A DNA stretch of 64,000 nt from an uncultured Pseudomonadales bacterium (lineage in GTDB: Bacteria > Pseudomonadota > Gammaproteobacteria > Pseudomonadales > Azotimanducaceae), in contig OY282430.1 in assembly GCA_958296025.1 (NCBI GenBank), forward strand, positions 992,001-1,056,000. Direction: 5' to 3'. The notes under the pieces are model-generated. The model was not told the DNA's origin, made no database searches, and saw nothing but the letters and a program-made list of their open reading frames with translations. The first letter of the stretch is position 1. Every line of letters starts with the position of its first letter. The translations under genes and the position numbers were made by a program. Shown piece after piece: positions 51,550-62,893 of this stretch.

Positions 51550-53068
51550 TGTCAAACCAAAGTAGAAATGTCCCCTTTTCTCCAAAGTTAAAATGTCCCC
51601 TTCCCTGTTTTCCGTTCCCAAGCGGACGTTGCTGGATTCGCCGGGGGGCGGCGGGGCCGTGAACGGAGGGAGCGGAGCGACCGGAGGTCACGGCCCCGCC
51701 GCGGCGCGCTCGGCGCCGACGCGCGCCGCCCGCCTCCAAGGATGGTCCGGGGCGGGCTTCCAGTTCGGGCGCGCCTGTTGGCGCGCCTTGGCCCGGTCCA
51801 CCGCATGGCGGACGCTCTTTTCGTCCTCCACGGAAACGGGCGGCTCCCCCTCGGCCAGCACCCGGAACGCAAGCGGCCGCCCGTCCCGAAGGATCGCCAC
51901 CCGCCCGTCGAAGCCCTCGCAGACCGTCACCCGGGCGCCGCGCAGTCCGTAGCCTTGGCCCCGAACCTGGATCTGGTGCTCCCGACCGCGGTAGCGGAGC
52001 GTCAGGCTCCTCGACACCTTGCGCGTCGAGTGCAGGGACAGGATCAGGCCCAGCTCCGCCGCGTCGTGCAGCACCGGCCGGTGCGCGTCCGCCGGGCAAA
52101 GGGGCTCCACCGCGAAGCGCCGGTTGTGGTCCTCCATGAACTCCGGCAGGAAGGCGTTGCCGGCCTCCATGCCGTCGATGCCCCGCAGCCGCATCTCCTT
52201 GACCAAACGGTCCTGCAGCGTCCCGTTGGCCCGCTCCACCCGCCCCTTCGCCTGCGGGCTGCCCGCATGGATCGGCTCGATGTCCAGCGTCCTCAGCGCC
52301 CGCCCGAACTGCGTCAGCTCCCCCTCGCGCTCCCGATGGTTCACCCGGAAGACCCCATGCTTGTCCGAATAAACCGCCACCGGGCGGCCATGCCCGTCCA
52401 AGTGGCCGCGCAGCACCTCCATGTAGGCCTCGGTGGTCTCCGCCGGGACGAACCGCAGCGCCAGAAGCCGGCTGGTCGCGTCGTCGATGAACACGATCAG
52501 CGAGCACCGCGGCCCCCGGTCCTCGAACCAGGCGTGCTCCGAGCCGTCGACCTGAACCAGCTCCCCGAAGCACGGACGACGGGGGCGCCTCTGGCGAACC
52601 GGCGCCCCCCGGCGCGGCTTGGCCCGCCGCAGGCCATCCTCAAGCATCCACTTGCGCAGCGTCTCCGCCGACAGCCTGAAGCCGTGAACCTCCACCAGCT
52701 TCTCCCGAGCGAACGTCGGCCCGAAGTCCGCGTAGCGCTCCCGAACCAAGTCCATCGCCCGCCCGCGCACCTCCGCCGCAATCGCGTTGTTCGACCGCCT
52801 CCCCCGACGCCCGGACGTCAATCCCGCCGCGCCGCGCTCCCGGTAGCGCCGCACCAAGCGCTTGACCTGGCGAACCCCCAAGCCCAAACGCTCCGCCGCC
52901 TGACGCTGCCGAACCCGTCCCTCCGCCGCGTCCCTGACCACGCCAAGCCTGTCCGCCTCCTTGCCGCTCATCAACACCAACCCTTCCGACATCCGTCCGC
53001 CCTCCGGCACAGCCAAAAGGGGACATTTCTACTTTGGAGAAAGGGGACATTACAGCTTTGGGCTGACA
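51550..53068 (-). mobile_element. ISNCY/IS1202-type insertion sequence, complete
   Basis: A 1,519-bp element with ends TGTCAAACCAAAG (left) and TGTCAGCCCAAAG (right, complement). It carries one transposase gene and is flanked by a perfect 16-bp direct repeat, GGCGCTGCCGCCGGTG (51,534-51,549 and 53,069-53,084). Each end has two copies of a CCAAAG...AATGTCCCC motif about 25 bp apart, whereas the fragments at 4,735 and 12,021 have one. Long target duplications are known in the IS1202 group. Confidence 0.92.
51688..52992 (-). CDS. ISNCY/IS1202-type transposase
   Basis: A 434-residue transposase. An N-terminal helix-turn-helix (RQRQAAERLGLGVRQVKRLV, then RRYRERGAAGL) precedes a DDE core: Asp in ELVQVDGSEHAWFEDRG, Asp in VAVYSDKHGVFRVNHRE, Glu in GSPQAKGRVERANGTLQDRL. 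A beta-strand-rich C-terminal domain follows (YRGREHQIQVRGQGYGLRG). I chose the ATG at 52,992 with GGAGGG upstream; a TTG at 53,016 is an alternative. It appears intact. Fragments at 4,322 and 11,722 come from related copies. Confidence 0.92.
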   Translation of the reverse strand: MSEGLVLMSGKEADRLGVVRDAAEGRVRQRQAAERLGLGVRQVKRLVRRYRERGAAGLTSGRRGRRSNNAIAAEVRGRAMDLVRERYADFGPTFAREKLVEVHGFRLSAETLRKWMLEDGLRRAKPRRGAPVRQRRPRRPCFGELVQVDGSEHAWFEDRGPRCSLIVFIDDATSRLLALRFVPAETTEAYMEVLRGHLDGHGRPVAVYSDKHGVFRVNHREREGELTQFGRALRTLDIEPIHAGSPQAKGRVERANGTLQDRLVKEMRLRGIDGMEAGNAFLPEFMEDHNRRFAVEPLCPADAHRPVLHDAAELGLILSLHSTRKVSRSLTLRYRGREHQIQVRGQGYGLRGARVTVCEGFDGRVAILRDGRPLAFRVLAEGEPPVSVEDEKSVRHAVDRAKARQQARPNWKPAPDHPWRRAARVGAERAAAGP

Positions 53069-54370: not shown

Positions 54371-54967
54371 ATGAAGCATGCACTGATGGCCTTGGCCGCA
54401 TACGTTTTGGCTTCGTTGGCGTCGTCGGCGCTCGCGGATGCCTATACGGATGGATGGGGCTTGGCCGTGGGCGCCAAGGCGCCGACCATCAAGGCCCCGG
54501 ACCAAACTGGTGCCGTTCGGGACCTATCGTCCTTGGCGGGGGAGCGCGGGTTGTTGCTGTTCCTGAACCGCTCCGCTGATTGGTGACCCTTTTGCATGCA
54601 CCAGTTGGTTCAACTGGAGGAATGGCGGGAACCGTTCGAGGCGGCTGGTGTCAAAGTTGCCGCGATGACCTACGACGCGGTTGACATCTTGGCCGGCTTT
54701 CACGCCGAGCGAAACCTTGGCTATCCCCTGCTGCACGATGAGGGGGCTAAACATGTGATCGGCTTCAACGTACTGAACGAGCAGTACGCCCCAGGCCACG
54801 GCGCCTACGGCATCCCTCATCCGGGCGTCTTCTACCTGTCGCCGGAAGGTGCGGTGGTGGCCAAGTTCGCCATGCCGAGCTACCGAGAGCGCCCACCGAT
54901 GCAGGAGCTGCTCGATGCGGTGCAGGCCGCCGCGCCGGTTCAGGCTGAAGCGGGGGCGGCGGGCTGA
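54371..54967 (+). CDS. Thioredoxin-fold redoxin with in-frame TGA at the active site; candidate selenoprotein
   Basis: A single frame of 198 codons is interrupted only by a TGA at codon 72 (54,584-54,586). The N-terminus is a signal peptide (MKHALMALAAYVLASLASSA). The domain is an AhpC/TSA-like redoxin: FLNRSADW, then TGA, PFC, MHQLVQLEEWREPFEAAG, VKVAAMTYDAVDIL, YPLLHDEGAKHVIGF, GIPHPGVFYLSPEGAVVAKF. In homologues I know, this reads SADWCPYC or SADWCPFC, so the TGA replaces the first cysteine of the CxxC, giving UxxC. A perfect 7-bp hairpin stands 14 bases later. Selenocysteine is the better explanation; a nonsense mutation is the alternative. It is coupled to tatT by a 1-bp overlap. Confidence 0.75.
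54601..54617 (+). promoter_or_regulatory. Possible bacterial SECIS hairpin
   Basis: CCAGTTG-GTT-CAACTGG forms a perfect 7-bp stem with a GTT loop. It begins 14 bases after the TGA, and the loop G is 22 bases from the TGA. That is within the range of bacterial SECIS elements, which lie just 3' of the UGA and present a G/U-containing apical loop to SelB. This hairpin lies inside the coding sequence, as expected. Confidence 0.6.
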
Positions 54968-55839
54968 TGCCGCCACCGAGCGGTTGGAGGCATTGCGTTC
55001 GAGCACTGTTTTTGGCCGCCCCGGTGGCCTTGGCCGGCTGCGCCACCATGATGTCCTCCGTCACGGAGAGCATGGCGGAGGATTTGGCGGCGGCGATTCT
55101 GGAGAATCCCGATGTTGACATCGTGCGCGAGGGGGCGCCGGCCTTCCTGTTGCTGATCGACGGCTTGCTGGAAGGCGCTCCGGATAGCGTCGCCTTACTG
55201 TCCCAGGCGGCAGCCCTGAATTCCGCCTACGCCGGCGCTTTTCTGGACGACGAGTTGCGCATTCGTCTGATGGCGGCCAAGGCCAAGGGCTTGGCCGAAC
55301 AGGCCCTCTGCCTCGGCGTACGGGGCGGCTGCGGCGTCACCCGCCGGCCCTTTGCGGAGTTCGAGCAGTGGGCTGCGGCTTTGCGGTCAGACGACGTACC
55401 CCTCGCTTACGGCCTAGCCACCGCTTGGGCCACCTGGATGCAGGCCAACAGCGAGGACTTCAACGCCATCGCCGACCTCGGCCGGGTTAAGCTGCTGATG
55501 CAGCGTGTCGTCGAACTGGACGAAGGCTATGAATACGGCGGCCCGCAACTCTACATGGGCGTCTTTGAAACCCTGTTGCCGCCGGCCTTGGGCGGGCGCC
55601 CAGAGGTGGGCCGCGCCCACTTTGAACGGGCCTTGGCGCTGGCCGAAGGCAAGCATCTGCTCACTCAGGTGATGTTCGCCGAACAGTACGCCCGGTTGGT
55701 GTTCGACCGCGCCCTGCATGATGATTTGCTCAACGAGGCACTGGCCTCGGAGGTGGACATCCCCGAGCTGAGGCTGATGAACGCCATCGCCAAACGCCGC
55801 GCCCAAGGCCTGATGGAGACCGCCGATGCCTATTTCTAA
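54967..55839 (+). CDS. tatT: TatT-like TRAP-associated lipoprotein
   Basis: A 290-residue lipoprotein (lipobox LAGC, Cys25) with a TPR-like helical body: LLSQAAALNSAYAGAFLDDE, YGLATAWATWMQANSEDFNA, GPQLYMGVFETLLPPALGGR and RAHFERALALAEGKHLL. It matches TatT, the trimeric TPR protein that works beside the TRAP binding protein TatP. The next gene is exactly such a binding protein and overlaps by 14 bp. The start overlaps the redoxin stop by 1 bp. Confidence 0.85.
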   Translation: MPPPSGWRHCVRALFLAAPVALAGCATMMSSVTESMAEDLAAAILENPDVDIVREGAPAFLLLIDGLLEGAPDSVALLSQAAALNSAYAGAFLDDELRIRLMAAKAKGLAEQALCLGVRGGCGVTRRPFAEFEQWAAALRSDDVPLAYGLATAWATWMQANSEDFNAIADLGRVKLLMQRVVELDEGYEYGGPQLYMGVFETLLPPALGGRPEVGRAHFERALALAEGKHLLTQVMFAEQYARLVFDRALHDDLLNEALASEVDIPELRLMNAIAKRRAQGLMETADAYF

Positions 55840-56836
55840 CCGTTCCATTCCGTTCATCCTACTGGTTGTCTGTGCGCTGTTGGGGCCGGCCTTCGGCGCC
55901 GCCGTCACCTTGAAGGTGGCCGCGCTGTCGCCGGAGGGATCGGTGTGGATGAAACTGCTGCGCGAGGGCGGCGAACGGGTGGCCGCGCAGACCGAGGGCC
56001 GGGTGGCTTTCAAGTTCTATCCCGGCGGCGTCATGGGCGACGACAAGGCGGTGCTGCGCAAGATGCGGGTGGGCCAGCTGCAGGGCGCCGTGGTCACCTC
56101 CGGGGCCTTGGTGCAAGTCTATCCGGACATTGGCCTGTACAACCTGCCGATGGCCTTTCGCTCCAGTGCCGAGGCGGACTATGTGCGAAAGCGTCTGGAC
56201 GGGCGGCTGTTGGCCGGTTTGGAGGGGGAGGGCTTGGTGGCCTTCGGCTTCGCCGAAGTGGGCTTCGCCCTCGCCATGGCGCGCACCCCGGTCACCAGCG
56301 TGGCCGACGCCAGGGCGCGCAAGGTGTGGACGCCGGACAACGACCCGGGCTCCGCCCGCGCCCTGCAGGCGTTCGGCATCACGCCCATACCCCTGCCCAT
56401 CGTCGATGTTTTGGGCGGCCTGCAGACCGGCCTGATCGACTGCATCGCCGCGCCGCCGGTGGGGGCCATCGCGTTGCAATGGCACACTAGGGTCAGCCAT
56501 GTGTTGAATCTGCCCCTGCTTTACATCTACGGCCTGCTGGCCATCGACAAGGGCCGCTTTGACCGGCTGGATACGGCGGACCAAGCCGTGGTGCGCAAGG
56601 TCATGGGGGAGATGGTGGCCAAGGTCAACGCCCGCAGCCGCCGCGACCATGAGCAGGCGTCGGCGGCGCTGGCCAACCAAGGGCTGCAATGGCTGCAAGC
56701 CTCCGCCGACGAAGCGGCCGAGTGGCGTACGCTGGCGGACCGAGCCGCAGCTCGGCTGGTGCAGGAGGGCTACGTCTCCGCCGACCTGCACAACGCGATG
56801 CTGGAGCATCTCAGAGTCTTTCGAGCGGGTTCCTGA
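55826..56836 (+). CDS. dctP: TRAP transporter solute-binding protein (DctP/TatP)
   Basis: A 336-residue periplasmic binding protein with a signal peptide (SIPFILLVVCALLGPAFGA). Conserved DctP segments are present: LKVAALSPEGSVWMKLLREG, FKFYPGGVMGDDKAVLRKM, LYNLPMAFRSSAEADYVRK and TPDNDPGSARALQAFGITPI. The Arg that usually contacts a carboxylate in DctP proteins is not obvious to me. Together with TatT next door this fits a non-carboxylate, perhaps hydrophobic, ligand. Confidence 0.88.
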   Translation: MPISNRSIPFILLVVCALLGPAFGAAVTLKVAALSPEGSVWMKLLREGGERVAAQTEGRVAFKFYPGGVMGDDKAVLRKMRVGQLQGAVVTSGALVQVYPDIGLYNLPMAFRSSAEADYVRKRLDGRLLAGLEGEGLVAFGFAEVGFALAMARTPVTSVADARARKVWTPDNDPGSARALQAFGITPIPLPIVDVLGGLQTGLIDCIAAPPVGAIALQWHTRVSHVLNLPLLYIYGLLAIDKGRFDRLDTADQAVVRKVMGEMVAKVNARSRRDHEQASAALANQGLQWLQASADEAAEWRTLADRAAARLVQEGYVSADLHNAMLEHLRVFRAGS

Positions 56837-57010: not shown

Positions 57011-57469
57011 GTGAAGCAGGCACTGGCGCTGCTGCGGCGGTTCGAGGATGCGGTCTTGGTCCTGATCTTGGCCGCCATCATCGGCGTGGCCGCCTATCAG
57101 GTGGTGGCCCGCAACCTATTCGACACCGGTTTGCTGTGGGGGGACGCCTTGGTGCGGGTGCTGGTGATTTGGGTGGCGATGGTGGGGGCCATGGTGGCCT
57201 CGCGCACAGACGACCACATCCGCATCGATCTGGCGGCCCGCTTCGCCCCGGCCTCTTGGCGGCCGTTCCTGGTCCGCTTCGCCAACGGCTTCACCAGCGC
57301 CGTGCTTGGCGTTTTCGCTTGGTTCAGCCTGCGCTTCGTGCTCTTTGAATACGAGGATGGGATGATCGCCTTCGGCGCGGTCCCGGCTTGGCTTTGCGCC
57401 AGCATCCTGCCCTTGGGTGCCGGCCTCATGTGCCTGCGCTACCTGCTGCATACCTTGGCGCCGCGATGA
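57011..57469 (+). CDS. dctQ: TRAP transporter small membrane subunit (DctQ)
   Basis: A 152-residue protein with four membrane helices (FEDAVLVLILAAIIGVAAYQ, LVRVLVIWVAMVGAMVAS, SAVLGVFAWFSLRFVLFEY, and a final AWLCASILPLGAGLMCLRYL) and the DctQ signature near RTDDHIRIDL. The start is a GTG at 57,011 with GGAGGAG upstream. It overlaps dctM by 4 bp (ATGA). Confidence 0.88.
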   Translation: MKQALALLRRFEDAVLVLILAAIIGVAAYQVVARNLFDTGLLWGDALVRVLVIWVAMVGAMVASRTDDHIRIDLAARFAPASWRPFLVRFANGFTSAVLGVFAWFSLRFVLFEYEDGMIAFGAVPAWLCASILPLGAGLMCLRYLLHTLAPR

Positions 57470-58794
57470 TTTGGGCCGGCATCCTCCTAGTGCTGGCTGC
57501 GGCCTTGGCCGGGGCACCGCTCATCGCGGTGCTCATGGCCGCCGCCATGCTGGGCTTTATGGCCGCCGGCATCGATCTGACAGTGGTGGCCATCGAGGTT
57601 TACCGCATCGTCGATACGCCCCTGTTGGTGGCCCTGCCGCTGTTCACCTACGCCGGCTACGTTCTGGCCGAGGCGAGGACCTCGGAGCGGTTGGTGGCCC
57701 TGGTGCGCAGCCTGTTCGGCTGGCTGCCGAATGGCTTGGCCATCGTCGGCTTCATCGCCTGCGGCCTGTTTACGGCACTGACCGGTGCCTCCGGGGTCAC
57801 CATCGTCGCCTTGGGTGCCTTGCTGCTGCCGGCCTTGCTTCAGGCCGGCTACGGGCAGCGCTTCAGCTTGGGGCTGGTCACCACCTCCGGCAGCCTGGGC
57901 CTGCTGCTGGCGCCCTCCCTGCCGCTCATTTTGTATGGCGTCATCGCCCAACAGATCAATCTGGGCGAACCCTTCACCATCATCGATCTGTTCAAGGCGG
58001 GGGTGCTGCCGCTGCTGCTGATGCTGGCCTGCCTGATCGCTTGGACGCTATGGACGCAGCGCGGCGGCGCGTCGCCAACGGGCGAGGGCGGGCGAATGGA
58101 GGCCGGCACGGACGATGCCCCACAATTGGTCGCCGCCCAACGCCCGTCGGTCCGCGCCGCCCTGTGGGACGCCCGCTGGGAATTGCCTCTGCCGCTGGTG
58201 GTGCTCGGCGGCATCTACTCCGGCTTCTTCGCCATCTCCGAGGCGGCGGCGGTGACTGCGGTTTACGTCACCCTTGCGGAGACGCTGCTATACAAGGATT
58301 TGCGCCTGCGTACACTGCCGGCGGTGGCGGTCAAGGCCATGATGATGGTCGGCGGCATCCTGCTGATTCTGGGCGTGGCGCTGGCCTTCACCAGCTTTTT
58401 GGTCGATGCCGAAGTGCCGCAGCTGTTGTTCGAGTTCATGCAGGCCCACATCGAAAGCCCCATTGCCTTCCTGCTGTTGTTGAATGTCTTGCTGTTGGCC
58501 TTGGGCGCCCTGCTGGACATCTTCTCCGCATTGGTCATCATGGTGCCCCTGATTCTGCCGGTGGCGGTGGGCTACGGCATTGATCCGGTGCATTTGGGCA
58601 TTGTATTTTTGGCAAACATGCAGATTGGCTACTTCACGCCGCCGGTGGGCATGAACCTGTTCATCGCCAGCTATCGATTCAATCAGCCAGTGCTGACCCT
58701 GTACGCCGCCTGCTGGCCGTTCATGCTGGTGTTGTTGGCGGCCCTGCTGCTGATCACCTACGTTCCCTGGTTCACCTTGGCGTTGGTGCGATGA
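57466..58794 (+). CDS. dctM: TRAP transporter large membrane subunit (DctM)
   Basis: A 442-residue polytopic membrane protein of the DctM family: ALPLFTYAGYVLAEARTSER, FTALTGASGVTIVALGALLL, GLLLAPSLPLILYGVIAQQ, and the C-terminal LGIVFLANMQIGYFTPPVGM. It is the sodium- or proton-driven permease. An insert of about 40 hydrophilic residues (about 200-235, Gly/Glu-rich) lies in a loop. It overlaps mlaC by 4 bp, which ties the TRAP genes and the Mla genes into one transcript. Confidence 0.9.
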   Translation: MIWAGILLVLAAALAGAPLIAVLMAAAMLGFMAAGIDLTVVAIEVYRIVDTPLLVALPLFTYAGYVLAEARTSERLVALVRSLFGWLPNGLAIVGFIACGLFTALTGASGVTIVALGALLLPALLQAGYGQRFSLGLVTTSGSLGLLLAPSLPLILYGVIAQQINLGEPFTIIDLFKAGVLPLLLMLACLIAWTLWTQRGGASPTGEGGRMEAGTDDAPQLVAAQRPSVRAALWDARWELPLPLVVLGGIYSGFFAISEAAAVTAVYVTLAETLLYKDLRLRTLPAVAVKAMMMVGGILLILGVALAFTSFLVDAEVPQLLFEFMQAHIESPIAFLLLLNVLLLALGALLDIFSALVIMVPLILPVAVGYGIDPVHLGIVFLANMQIGYFTPPVGMNLFIASYRFNQPVLTLYAACWPFMLVLLAALLLITYVPWFTLALVR

Positions 58795-59456
58795 GGCGCC
58801 GGCCTCCTTGCCGTGCTTGGACCAGCCGGGGCGGTCGCGCCGCTGGGGTGCGGCTGCGGCTGGCCGCCTTGGTTTGGGGCGTTGGCTTCGCGGCGGCGGC
58901 TTGGCTTGCGGCACCTTGGGCTGCCGTGCCGGAGGGGGCGGAGGAAGCCGCCGCCAGCGTGGACCGCTTTCACGGCGTGCTTGTCGGGGCCATGCAAGCC
59001 GGCGCCTTTGATGCCCGCCTGGTCCTGCTTGCGCCGGCCGTGGCGGAGTTATTCGATGTGGTCTCCATCGCTCGCATCAGCGTTGGTCGCAGCAGTTGGC
59101 GCAGCTTGCCGGATGCCGAGCGCACGGCCTTCATTGAACTGTTGGAGCGCCTGATCGTCGCCACCTACGCGGACCGCTTCGACAGCTACAGCGGCCAGCG
59201 CTTCGAGCGGGTCGGGTCGGCGGCCGCTAGCACCGGCGTGGTCATCAAGTCGCAACTCATCCGCGCCAACGGCGAGCCGGTGAATTTGGACTACTACTTT
59301 CGCGGCGCCAAGGTGTTCAATGTGGTGGCTGACGGGGTCAGCGATCTGTCCTTGCGGCGGGCGGACTATGCCGCCATCATCAGGAAGCAGGGCTTTGCGG
59401 CGCTGGTGGAGCACATTGAGGCCAGCATTGCCGAGGCCGGTGCGGCGGGGCCCTAA
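58791..59456 (+). CDS. mlaC: MlaC-type phospholipid-binding protein
   Basis: A 221-residue MlaC (Ttg2D) protein: LLAPAVAELFDVVSIARISV, LPDAERTAFIELLERLIVAT, FDSYSGQRFERVGS, NLDYYFRGAKVFNVVADGVS, DLSLRRADYAAIIRKQG. A hydrophobic segment at about 22-45 is a signal peptide. It carries phospholipids through the periplasm. No MlaEFDB transporter genes are beside it; instead the RND-type protein follows after mlaA, as in hopanoid (Hpn) loci. Confidence 0.88.
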   Translation: MRRRPPCRAWTSRGGRAAGVRLRLAALVWGVGFAAAAWLAAPWAAVPEGAEEAAASVDRFHGVLVGAMQAGAFDARLVLLAPAVAELFDVVSIARISVGRSSWRSLPDAERTAFIELLERLIVATYADRFDSYSGQRFERVGSAAASTGVVIKSQLIRANGEPVNLDYYFRGAKVFNVVADGVSDLSLRRADYAAIIRKQGFAALVEHIEASIAEAGAAGP

Positions 59457-59486: not shown

Positions 59487-60335
59487 ATGAATGCGCGCAC
59501 AACGAGCATCGGCGCCTTTAACCGCCGGGAAATGGGGGCGGCCAAGCCGGGGGCGACCGGGCTGAACGGCGGGTCGGCGCCTGGCGGATATCCGTCGGCT
59601 GGCGCAAGCCGTGTCGCCGGCCCGTTGCTGGTGGCGGCTGTCCTGCTGCAAGGTGCCTGCGCCAGTCTGGAGGGGCCGGATTACGCCGTTCAAGATCCTG
59701 GCGAGAAGTTCAACCGAGCCTCCTTCGAATTCTCCGAGGAGGTGGACCGGAGCTTCCTGGTGCCGGTGGCGCGGACCTACCAAAGGGTGCTGCCGGATCC
59801 GTTGGAGAGGGGCGCCTCCAACTTCTTTGCTAACTTGCGCATGGTCGATAGCGGCCTCAACGGCTTCCTGCAGGGCAAGCCGAAGAGCGGCAGCACCGAC
59901 CTGATGCGCTTCCTGCTCAACAGCACCTTGGGCGTGGCCGGCCTGTTCGATGTGGCCACCCCCGCCGGCTTGCGCGCCCAAAACGAGGACTTCGGCCAAA
60001 CCCTGGCCGTTTGGGGTTGGCGCAGCAGCCGCTACGTCTATGTGCCCTTGGTTGGGCCATCGACAGTACGCGACCTGCCGGCCATGGCACTCAGCGCCTT
60101 CGCCCCGCGCCTGCTGCTGGGCCAATACCATAGGCTCTGGGTCAGCGGCGTCGGCTTGGTCGGCACCCGCGCCGATGCGCTGGCGCTAACCGACGTGAGG
60201 GACGCCGCGGCCTTGGACCCCTACGCTTTCACTAGGGAAGCCTACTATCAGCGCCGTGAGTTCCTCATTCATGATGGGCAGCCGCCTCTGGACGACTTCG
60301 ACAGCTTCTTCAACGAGGCCGACGCCGGCGAATGA
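59487..60335 (+). CDS. mlaA: MlaA/VacJ-type outer-membrane lipoprotein
   Basis: A 282-residue MlaA: DPGEKFNRASFEFSEEVDRS, VARTYQRVLPDPLERGASNF, LMRFLLNSTLGVAGLFDVAT, GQTLAVWGWRSSRYVYVPLV and GPSTVRDLPA. A putative lipobox (LQGAC) at about 55-58 is imperfect, and the N-terminal extension of about 40 residues before the hydrophobic segment is unusual. MlaA takes phospholipids from the outer leaflet of the outer membrane. It overlaps the RND gene by 4 bp. Confidence 0.88.
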   Translation: MNARTTSIGAFNRREMGAAKPGATGLNGGSAPGGYPSAGASRVAGPLLVAAVLLQGACASLEGPDYAVQDPGEKFNRASFEFSEEVDRSFLVPVARTYQRVLPDPLERGASNFFANLRMVDSGLNGFLQGKPKSGSTDLMRFLLNSTLGVAGLFDVATPAGLRAQNEDFGQTLAVWGWRSSRYVYVPLVGPSTVRDLPAMALSAFAPRLLLGQYHRLWVSGVGLVGTRADALALTDVRDAAALDPYAFTREAYYQRREFLIHDGQPPLDDFDSFFNEADAGE

Positions 60336-62893
60336 TTCAACGCTGGCTGATACAGAGCCTAGTCAAATGGGTGGCTCTGGTTTATACCCATGCTTGGGCC
60401 ACCTTGGTGGCGGTGACTCTGCTGACCAGCGTCTGCGCTTGGTTCGCCTTGGACCGCTTCAGGATGAACGCGGACTTAGGGGACCTCATCAAACAGGAGG
60501 CCGCTTGGCGGGACGACTTCGACCGCTTTGAGGGGCTGTTCCCGGATCACGTCAAGACCGCCGTGGTGGTCGTTTTCGGTACCGGCTTCAAACAGGTGGA
60601 GGACACCGCCAAGCGCATTGAGGATGAAATCCGCCGGCGCCCGGACCGCTTTCGCGCCCTATACGCCCCAGGCAACGATCCCTTCTTCCGCGATCACGCA
60701 CTCCTCTATCTGGAAGCAGAGGAACTGGAGGATGTCGCCGACCGCCTAGCCGAGGCGCAGCCTTGGCTTACTGCGGTCGCCGAAGATCCCAGCCTGCGCG
60801 GCATCCTCGGGCTGCTGGCGGAGGGCATCGAAAACGAGTTGCCCAGCGGTGCCGACCGCACCGTGCGCCTGCTGGAGGCATCGGCTGTGGCCCTGCTGCA
60901 GGGAGGCGACCCCAGCGTGTACTGGGCCAATGAGTTCTTCACCGCCGATGAGACGAGGCACCGGCTCATCGCCGTCAAGAGCAATTTCGCTTTAAGCGGC
61001 ACCTTGGCCGATGCCGAGGTGGTGCGTGAACTGCGCGGCATCATCGCCGCAGTCGGCGTTCCGCCCGGCGTTGGCGTCGGCGTCACCGGTGAAGTGGCCT
61101 TGGCCCACGAGGAGATCGAGGCGGCGGTGGACGGTGTGCAGCTGGCTGGCTGGCTGGCCGTGGCGCTGTTGGCGGTGTTGCTGATCCTTGGCGTCCGCTC
61201 CTGGAAGATTATCGTCGCCACCTTCGCCATGCTGCTTGTCGGCATCACCTGGACTGCCGCCTACGGCATGCTGTCGGTGGGGGAGTTCAACACCCTCTCC
61301 ATCGTCTTCATGGTGATGTTCTTTGGCCTCGGCGTGGACTTCGCCATCCACTTTTCCCTGCGCTATCAGGAGGCGGTCAACACCGGCGAGGGGGCCATCG
61401 ATCAAGCGCTGGAATCCACGGTACACAGCGTCGGCAGCGCCATTGTGGTCTGCACCTTGACCACGGCCTTGGGCTTTCTCAGCTTTTGGCCAACGGACTA
61501 TCAAGGGCTGGCCGACCTCGGCCTGATCTGCGCCGGGGGCATCGTCATCGCCGGGTGGCTGACCTTCACCCTGCTGCCGGCCCTGTTCGCCGTGCTCGGC
61601 CCCATCAGTTCCCACGTCATGCCCATCCCCTCCAGCGCCCGGCTGGTAAATGCCCTCATCGGCCGTCGCCGCGCCGTGCTGGCCACCTTTGCCGTCCTAG
61701 CGGCCTTGGCGCTGGCCGTCGCCGACCAGACGCGCTTCGACTACAGTGTGCTGGCGTTGAAGGATCCGCAGACGGACTCCATGCGCACCCTGCGCCAGCT
61801 GCAGGCGCACGGCCAAGCGACGGATTACGCCCTGCTGCTGGTTTCCGCCGACGCGCAGGCCCTGCAGTCCATTGCGGCGCTGCCGACGGTGGATGCAGTC
61901 ATCAGTCAAGCGGACTTCCTGCCGACCGATCAGGAGGACAAGCTCTATGCGCTTGAGGATCTCAGGTTCATCCTCGGCAGTGCGCTGGATCCATTGCGCC
62001 AGTTGCCGGCGCCGGTGGCCAGCGAACTGCGGGCCAGTGTGGAGGCGCTGATTCAGAGCATTGAAGTCAACGACGACAACAGCCGTTTCGACGGCCTCAA
62101 AAGGGCCCTGCAGGAGCTGGCGAGGGGGCCGTCGCAGCAGCTGCAGCTGTGGCAGCGTGGCGTGGTGGCCAACTTGGTTGAGGAAATCGACTGGCTGCGC
62201 CGGGCGTTGCAGGTGTCCCCGGTGACGGTGGAAGAGGTGCCGGCCCAGGTTCGCGGCCGCTTCACTGGCGCAAATGGCGAGGGGTTGAGCATTGTTCTGC
62301 CCAAGGGGGAAGTCGCCGATGTGGATGCCATGACCCGCTTCATCCAGGATGTGCGAGCCATTGCGCCGACGGCGACCGGCCGCCCGGTTCTGGAGTGGGG
62401 AATTGGCGGCGTGGTGGTGTCGGCCTTTCAGCAAGCCTTGGCCTTCGCCTTGGTGTCCATCGGCTGCGTCCTGCTGCTGATGTTTCAGAGCCTACGTTAC
62501 GCCTTGCTGGTGGTCGTGCCCCTGGTCTTGGCGGTGGCCTTCACCTTGGCGCTCGGCGTATTGCTCGATATGCCGCTGAACATGGCCAACATTCTGGTGA
62601 TGCCTTTGATCTTCGGCCTTGGCGTCGATAACGGCGTGCATGTGGTGGACCGCTACCGGGGCGAGGGCGGCGTGTCCCACCTGATGTACTCCAGTACGCC
62701 GCGGGCGGTGGTGCTGAGCGCCCTGACCACCGTGGGCGCGTTCTCGGCCCTGTCCCTTTCGCCCCATGCCGGCACGGCGTCCATCGGCCTGCTGTTGGCC
62801 ATCGCCGTATCCCTGCTGTTGGTGTTCACCGTCTTCCTGTTGCCGGTGCTTCTGTCCTGGTTGTCCCATCCGGTCCACGAGCGGCGCGGATGA
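60332..62893 (+). CDS. RND/MMPL family exporter (HpnN-like)
   Basis: An 853-residue RND protein with two repeats of a periplasmic domain followed by six membrane helices. First bundle: WLAVALLAVLLILGVRSWK to MFFGLGVDFAIHFSLRYQEA. Second bundle: FALVSIGCVLLLMFQSLRYA to LIFGLGVDNGVHVVDRY. This layout and the company of MlaC and MlaA match HpnN-like lipid (hopanoid) exporters. No hopanoid synthesis gene is in the window. ATGA overlaps on both sides. Confidence 0.85.
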   Translation: MIQRWLIQSLVKWVALVYTHAWATLVAVTLLTSVCAWFALDRFRMNADLGDLIKQEAAWRDDFDRFEGLFPDHVKTAVVVVFGTGFKQVEDTAKRIEDEIRRRPDRFRALYAPGNDPFFRDHALLYLEAEELEDVADRLAEAQPWLTAVAEDPSLRGILGLLAEGIENELPSGADRTVRLLEASAVALLQGGDPSVYWANEFFTADETRHRLIAVKSNFALSGTLADAEVVRELRGIIAAVGVPPGVGVGVTGEVALAHEEIEAAVDGVQLAGWLAVALLAVLLILGVRSWKIIVATFAMLLVGITWTAAYGMLSVGEFNTLSIVFMVMFFGLGVDFAIHFSLRYQEAVNTGEGAIDQALESTVHSVGSAIVVCTLTTALGFLSFWPTDYQGLADLGLICAGGIVIAGWLTFTLLPALFAVLGPISSHVMPIPSSARLVNALIGRRRAVLATFAVLAALALAVADQTRFDYSVLALKDPQTDSMRTLRQLQAHGQATDYALLLVSADAQALQSIAALPTVDAVISQADFLPTDQEDKLYALEDLRFILGSALDPLRQLPAPVASELRASVEALIQSIEVNDDNSRFDGLKRALQELARGPSQQLQLWQRGVVANLVEEIDWLRRALQVSPVTVEEVPAQVRGRFTGANGEGLSIVLPKGEVADVDAMTRFIQDVRAIAPTATGRPVLEWGIGGVVVSAFQQALAFALVSIGCVLLLMFQSLRYALLVVVPLVLAVAFTLALGVLLDMPLNMANILVMPLIFGLGVDNGVHVVDRYRGEGGVSHLMYSSTPRAVVLSALTTVGAFSALSLSPHAGTASIGLLLAIAVSLLLVFTVFLLPVLLSWLSHPVHERRG

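Follow-up and report, generated by a model that had tools for sequence, protein, structure and literature searches.

Does a TGA codon within an otherwise open redoxin frame of an uncultured Pseudomonadales bacterium mark the loss of the gene, or is it read as selenocysteine, as the original prediction held? The question arises on contig OY282430.1 (assembly GCA_958296025.1), of which a stretch of 64,000 nucleotides, referred to here as the window, was analysed. In view of the sel genes of this bacterium, the conservation of the UGA codon among relatives and a covarying hairpin that is missing in the cysteine (Cys) forms, the prediction appears well supported. We assign a probability of roughly 0.94 to the reading that the gene specifies an exported AhpC/TSA (Prx-like) UxxC selenoprotein, the UGA codon 72 of which would be decoded as selenocysteine (Sec) via SelB, tRNA-Sec and a SECIS hairpin. 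The features of the locus are collected in Table 1.

Table 1. Features of the redoxin locus and the genes that follow it (positions within the window)
Feature	Coordinates	Strand	Basis or remark
UxxC redoxin selenoprotein gene (AhpC/TSA family), candidate	54371..54967	+	frame, PF00578, relatives; stop TGA included
UGA codon 72, putative selenocysteine	54584..54586	+	TGA in 29/30 loci; TGC/TGT in 80/80 Cys homologues
SECIS-like hairpin	54601..54617	+	ccagttg-gtt-caactgg; loop GU opens the Val80 codon
tatT, TRAP transporter T-component	54967..55839	+	Pfam TAtT, 226.4 bits
dctP, TRAP solute-binding protein	55826..56836	+	Pfam DctP, 104.7 bits
dctQ, TRAP small membrane subunit	57011..57469	+	Pfam DctQ, 85.4 bits
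dctM, TRAP large membrane subunit	57388..58794	+	Pfam DctM, 247.2 bits; listed start TTG
mlaC-like	58791..59456	+	Pfam MlaC, 110.1 bits
mlaA-like lipoprotein	59487..60335	+	Pfam MlaA, 208.9 bits
MMPL-family RND transporter	60332..62893	+	Pfam MMPL, 96.8 bits; place as read in the window

The redoxin gene and the selenocysteine machinery

The redoxin frame runs for 198 codons from an ATG at 54371 to a terminal TGA (54965-54967), and its sole inner TGA is codon 72, in the context SADW-U-PFC, the coordinates and codon number being exactly those originally given. The 126 codons past this TGA stayed open in 538 of 20,000 base shuffles, a frequency that, taken alone, makes their openness suggestive only. 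With Cys put at the TGA, the product matches PF00578 (69.8 bits; Pfam cut-off 26) and, more weakly, PF08534 (42.5 bits; cut-off 26.6), and both positions of the UxxC motif, U72-P-F-C75, are invariant in 25 alignment rows in which U was written as C. Among the nine PF00578 matches in the genome, eight of them over the cut-off, only this redoxin contains an inner stop. An AlphaFold2 model (mean pLDDT 90.0, pTM 0.83) places residue 72 after strand 60-65 and directly ahead of helix 73-91, and the best PDB matches to the fold by Foldseek are peroxiredoxins, with ResA-like oxidoreductases ranking lower, an order with which the sequence search agrees. The N-terminus, which is hydrophobic up to a closing ALA and predicted to be helical at residues 2-22, points to an exported, probably periplasmic protein. 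Ordinary annotation would give fragments of 71 and 123 residues, and the locus is a clear example of probable UGA recoding that such annotation would break in two. Candidate assignments to the SelL-related redox proteins (NF040769, a weak match over residues 37-126; 33.9 vs 120 bits), the PrxQ/BCP thiol peroxidases (NF006960; 37.3 vs 140 bits) and the ResA-like WAxxUGC proteins (NF041054; 20.2 vs 300 bits) were rejected at the curated cut-offs.

The genome, a single contig of 3,915,453 bases, contains all four of the genes that the original prediction had proposed to look for, with selA (511 bits), selB (402 bits), selD (263 bits) and the tRNA-Sec gene selC (76.6 bits) each scoring above its cut-off; selB and selC, the absence of either of which had been named as grounds for giving the prediction up, are thus both present. 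The selA and selB genes overlap, selC is next after selB, and ARAGORN likewise reports a tRNA-SeC with anticodon tca. Among the genomes compared, selB was found over the cut-off in 31 of 34 with the TGA form (scored at about 60 bits or more) and in 6 of 24 without it, for which Fisher's test gives p 2.5e-7 with relatedness ignored; because the loci are related, this value, like those of the hairpin statistics below, overstates. The TGA-form genomes that gave no selB over the cut-off, G024, G026 and G036, are 91, 91 and 85% complete. Formate dehydrogenase alpha, the usual selenoprotein, was not found over the cut-off by model TIGR01553, and a covariance model of UGA and hairpin, with which 150 of 1946 first-look candidates in this genome were scored, found no second site of the redoxin type, the window site scoring 65.4 bits and the next 15.8. 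As a separate observation, selD lies within an 818-aa open frame, at L017 1501-2400 (G000:C1:1654872-1655771), which would fit an Ndh-SelD fusion such as that described in the available text of PMC2398784.

Conservation of the UGA codon and its hairpin

The redoxin protein was matched in 47 of 58 relatives' genomes (own included), and TGA follows the conserved Trp in 29 of 30 loci, that is, our own and those of 29 relatives from many genera. The exception, L030 in genome G024, has TGG at this codon and two further in-frame stops, and looks decayed. Frame-breaking changes downstream of the TGA in close relatives, which had been put forward as evidence that would count against recoding, were looked for, and none stands behind a kept TGA except in L040, where a TAA lies near the C-terminus; the other TGA-keeping loci are open to the homologous end. 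In six pairs of sequences, one of which (L026/L027) is nearly identical and little informative, pN/pS was 0.18-0.35 downstream and 0.20-0.35 upstream of the TGA. A plasmid search returned 20 records, none with more than 80% coverage and all with identities below 60%. Two side observations concern individual relatives. The decayed copy L030 (G024:C49) still has TatT-DctPQM-MlaC-MlaA downstream, in a genome for which no selB match passed the cut-off. In another genome, a PrxQ-like frame (L059, G030:C100:43700-45000) has TGA at the usual peroxidatic Cys, in the motif TPG-U-T, and judged by its sequence is likely a second kind of selenoprotein.

The hairpin that had been noticed 14 nt past the TGA, with a perfect 7-bp stem and a GTT loop, was confirmed. 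It may be drawn either with a 7-bp stem and the 3-nt loop GTT at 21 nt, or with a 6-bp stem and the loop GGTTC at 20 nt. According to the available text of PMC13188914, the bacterial SECIS model comprises a loop of 3-9 nt on a stem of 4-16 bp, a G in the first two loop positions, a distance of 16-37 nt between UGA and loop, and an MFE of <= -7.5 kcal/mol. The UGA-to-loop distance, loop size and early-loop G of our hairpin all fit this model, and its folding energy of -10.4 is within the limit. All 29 TGA loci have a five-base loop with GU at positions 2-3, exactly 20 nt after the UGA, on a stem of 5-7 bp; in two of the 29, L042 and L046, the energies of -7.0 and -6.9 exceed the limit.

In alignment A1, 85.3% of cells are paired, compared with at most 38.8% in slid versions, two-sided changes affect 28 cells vs 10.6 in shuffles, and the covariation score is 0.327 vs 0.146, none of these three values being reached in any of 500 column shuffles. 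Of five pairing and covariation measures in these shuffles, three stood at 0/500 and the other two were unremarkable (131 and 121 of 500). It is because they are conserved that the TGA and hairpin go beyond chance, as is evident from the codon in 29/30 loci and from the three measures that no shuffle reached. Single-sequence folding and synonymous shuffles were dropped as proof, because energy hardly differs (mean -11.5 kcal/mol vs -10.4 in synonymous shuffles, our own sequence folding more weakly than its shuffles, at -10.4 vs -11.8) and single sequences are not significant: although the mean stem of the 29 sequences is 6.2 vs 3.8 in synonymous shuffles, the fraction of 300 such shuffles with a stem at least as long is 0.56 for our own sequence and ranges from 0.03 to 0.85 over the 29. 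An Rfam scan of the window gave no match; neither did RF00031 in the genome, a model that also gave 0/14 in control genomes and is thus uninformative.

Probable selenocysteine forms and cysteine homologues

Alignment of Cys homologues across the TGA, as the original prediction had proposed, gave TGC or TGT at this column in 80 of 80, these being the best of 179 relatives obtained with a Cys-requiring pattern; since the pattern demands Cys, it fixes their codon but not the absence of the hairpin, for which these homologues are the best control. A stem of at least 5 bp with a GU loop at the fixed place is found in 34 of 36 TGA forms, the other two (L051 and L056) having GG in place of GU, and in none of the 80 Cys homologues, while a generic search for stems of at least 5 bp found one in 36/36 and 18/80, respectively. 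Residue 80, the codon of which carries the loop GU, is Val in 34 of 36 TGA forms, whereas the Cys forms mostly have Ile (39/80) and Val in only 11/80; the constraint on Val80 seems to come from the RNA loop and not from the protein.

When 293 genomes of the order were searched, free of the Cys-pattern bias, 41 gave matches at E <= 1e-20, and the 18 loci read from these (L213-L230) include 13 with TGA, five of them genes already in the 30-locus count, and 5 with TGC or TGT. Twelve of these TGA loci, scored by script, have a stem of 5-7 bp and GU; in L229, inspected by eye, the stem carries the loop AGGTG. Both forms are found in family f223: genus g357 contributes two loci with TGA, a stem of 6 and a GU loop, and five loci of genus g340 have Cys, GU in 0/5 and Gln or Glu codons at the place of the Val codon, the stem being only 1-2 bp in four and 6 in L222. 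Sister lineages with Sec and the hairpin, or with Cys and no hairpin, make this family a natural experiment. A tree of 115 rows groups 33 Sec rows in a single branch, within which four Halieaceae Cys rows are nested; the Sec rows of L051 and L056 sit among acidobacterial Cys rows. The tree needs three changes. This tree, which is unrooted, suggests a loss of Sec in the Halieaceae and a separate origin of Sec for L051 and L056. The nested Halieaceae Cys forms (L099, L119, L120 and L127) fall within a membrane-anchored-looking TGA subtype and likely reflect a change from Sec to Cys; in L051 (G024:C38) and L056 (G030:C63), the frames of which span about 420-450 aa, the TGA form is divergent (VWUPPCWTQLGEL).

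How do these observations bear on readings that dispense with selenium? The competing idea raised in the original prediction, that a recent nonsense mutation turned a Cys codon into TGA (or that the TGA is a sequencing error) and that the gene is a pseudogene or the source of a truncated product, can draw on the single step between TGC or TGT and TGA, on the Cys of all 80 homologues fetched and on the existence of a decayed relative. We consider it highly improbable in view of the TGA kept in 29/30 loci from many genera, the like constraint on either side and the covarying hairpin missing in 80/80 Cys forms; the decayed relative, moreover, has TGG at the codon, and in its genome no selB reached the cut-off. 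Hardly any weight attaches to the production of an exported peptide of 71 residues plus a separate 123-residue protein from an ATG at 54596: such a frame does exist (54596-54967, 123 aa), yet the cut would break up the UxxC motif and, between strand 60-65 and helix 73-91, the fold as well, homologues with Sec and with Cys are continuous single proteins, and relatives often have AAG or some other codon in place of the ATG. The odds are similarly long against UGA readthrough as another residue (Trp, or by near-cognate suppression) to give a selenium-free protein, for which TGG in the one decayed relative could be cited, given a genome with a full Sec system, Cys in functional homologues, a hairpin that goes with TGA and not with Cys, and terminal TGA stops in normal use, e.g. 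that of the redoxin gene itself.

With decoding as selenocysteine, the short SECIS hairpin, its N-G-U-N-N loop starting 20 nt past the UGA, would recruit SelB and tRNA-Sec to insert selenocysteine at codon 72, and full translation of the redoxin would lead into tatT, which starts on the last base of the redoxin stop. In the periplasm, U72, placed ahead of the first long helix of the thioredoxin-like fold, may serve as nucleophile and C75 as resolving residue, in thiol-disulfide or peroxide chemistry. The decoding is supported by sequence and comparison; export, catalysis and substrate are our inference.

The transporter cluster and known systems

The redoxin gene is the head of a same-strand cluster continuing with tatT, dctP, dctQ, dctM, mlaC, mlaA and the MMPL gene, and the ATG of tatT shares one base with the last base of the redoxin stop; the true start of dctM is probably further in than the one listed. 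Regions were compared for 20 of the 29 relatives; 16 of them have TatT downstream, 15 have DctP, and 10 have MlaC with MlaA. TatT adjoins the redoxin in about 14 of the 20, is some kilobases off in G011 and G012, and is absent from G004, G014, G023 and G036, of which G023 has MlaC and MlaA. Cluster genes were found near none of 80 Cys homologue loci (tblastn at 1e-6, up to 4 kb on each side), and among loci L213-L230 TatT lies within about 1.5 kb in 7 of 13 with TGA vs none of 5 with Cys. Elsewhere in the window, a transposase-like frame on the minus strand (51688-53016), with helix-turn-helix domains over the cut-offs and a weak integrase-core match, is flanked by genes for a CMAS-family methyltransferase and an alpha/beta hydrolase.

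This neighbourhood, conserved yet unexplained, resembles lipid-transport machinery, and the genetic setting suggests that the redoxin serves a transport system for hydrophobic molecules, with a possible redox role in periplasmic lipid traffic. A more specific proposal, which we advance only tentatively and think unlikely in its full form, is that the redoxin is a dedicated selenoenzyme of a periplasmic hydrophobic-import route, reducing lipid hydroperoxides or disulfides at TatT-DctP-MlaC-MlaA-MMPL, and that redoxin and TatT production are coupled, with selenium supply gating the transporter. The chances are about even that the selenoprotein is instead a general periplasmic thiol oxidoreductase or peroxidase, tied to TatT/TRAP/Mla/MMPL by lineage synteny with no functional link. 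Such a view would accommodate the four regions that lack TatT, the two in which it is kilobases away, the 6 of 13 TGA loci (L213-L230) without it within about 1.5 kb, and the Cys homologues that live without the cluster, whereas adjacency in 14 of 20 regions, across several genera and at protein identities down to about 44-56%, and the overlap of the tatT start with the redoxin stop argue for a closer relationship. The association of a selenoprotein with a TRAP/Mla/MMPL cluster offers a testable lead on the function of Prx-like selenoproteins. Literature searches of incomplete coverage found no published account of a selenoprotein next to a TRAP/Mla cluster, and absence from print is not claimed.

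As a PF00578 protein with UxxC, the redoxin fits selenoprotein families already in print, as far as the available text of PMC2398784 and PMC13188914 goes. The GOS survey (PMC2398784 Table 2) has PF00578 UxxC selenoproteins as 'Prx-like 1' (225 sequences), and a 2026 review lists a Prx-like thiol:disulfide oxidoreductase selenoprotein of PF00578 with UxxC or UxxU (PMC13188914 Table 1), under a name also used in a 2006 study (PMC1794560). These proteins share with ours PF00578, UxxC, many Cys homologues and a SECIS just past the UGA; the likeness is one of domain and motif, and a TRAP/Mla/MMPL link goes unmentioned in the available parts of the survey and review. The Redoxin family selenoprotein of the same review (PF08534, UxxC; Table 1) has both domain and motif in common with the present redoxin, the PF00578 match of which is stronger. 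Classical peroxiredoxins (AhpE, PrxQ/BCP) have the same fold (5enu_A, E 3.7e-11; AhpE 1xxu_A, TM-score 0.88 by target length; Foldseek), but Sec peroxiredoxin is listed as TxxU (PMC13188914), unlike the UxxC found here.

The cluster itself may be compared with the BstABC sterol transporters and with TatT/TatP of Treponema, T-components being linked to hydrophobic ligands. BstA is an RND transporter. In the available text of the respective papers, BstC is described as a T-component that binds sterols (PMC10942540), and Treponema TatT as having a linear hydrophobic molecule in its pore, with uptake of hydrophobic molecules proposed (PMC5812351). Like the cluster described here, these systems include both a TRAP T-component and a periplasmic binding protein; a redoxin is unmentioned in those parts of the two papers, whereas the present cluster is headed by one and contains MlaC and MlaA as well.
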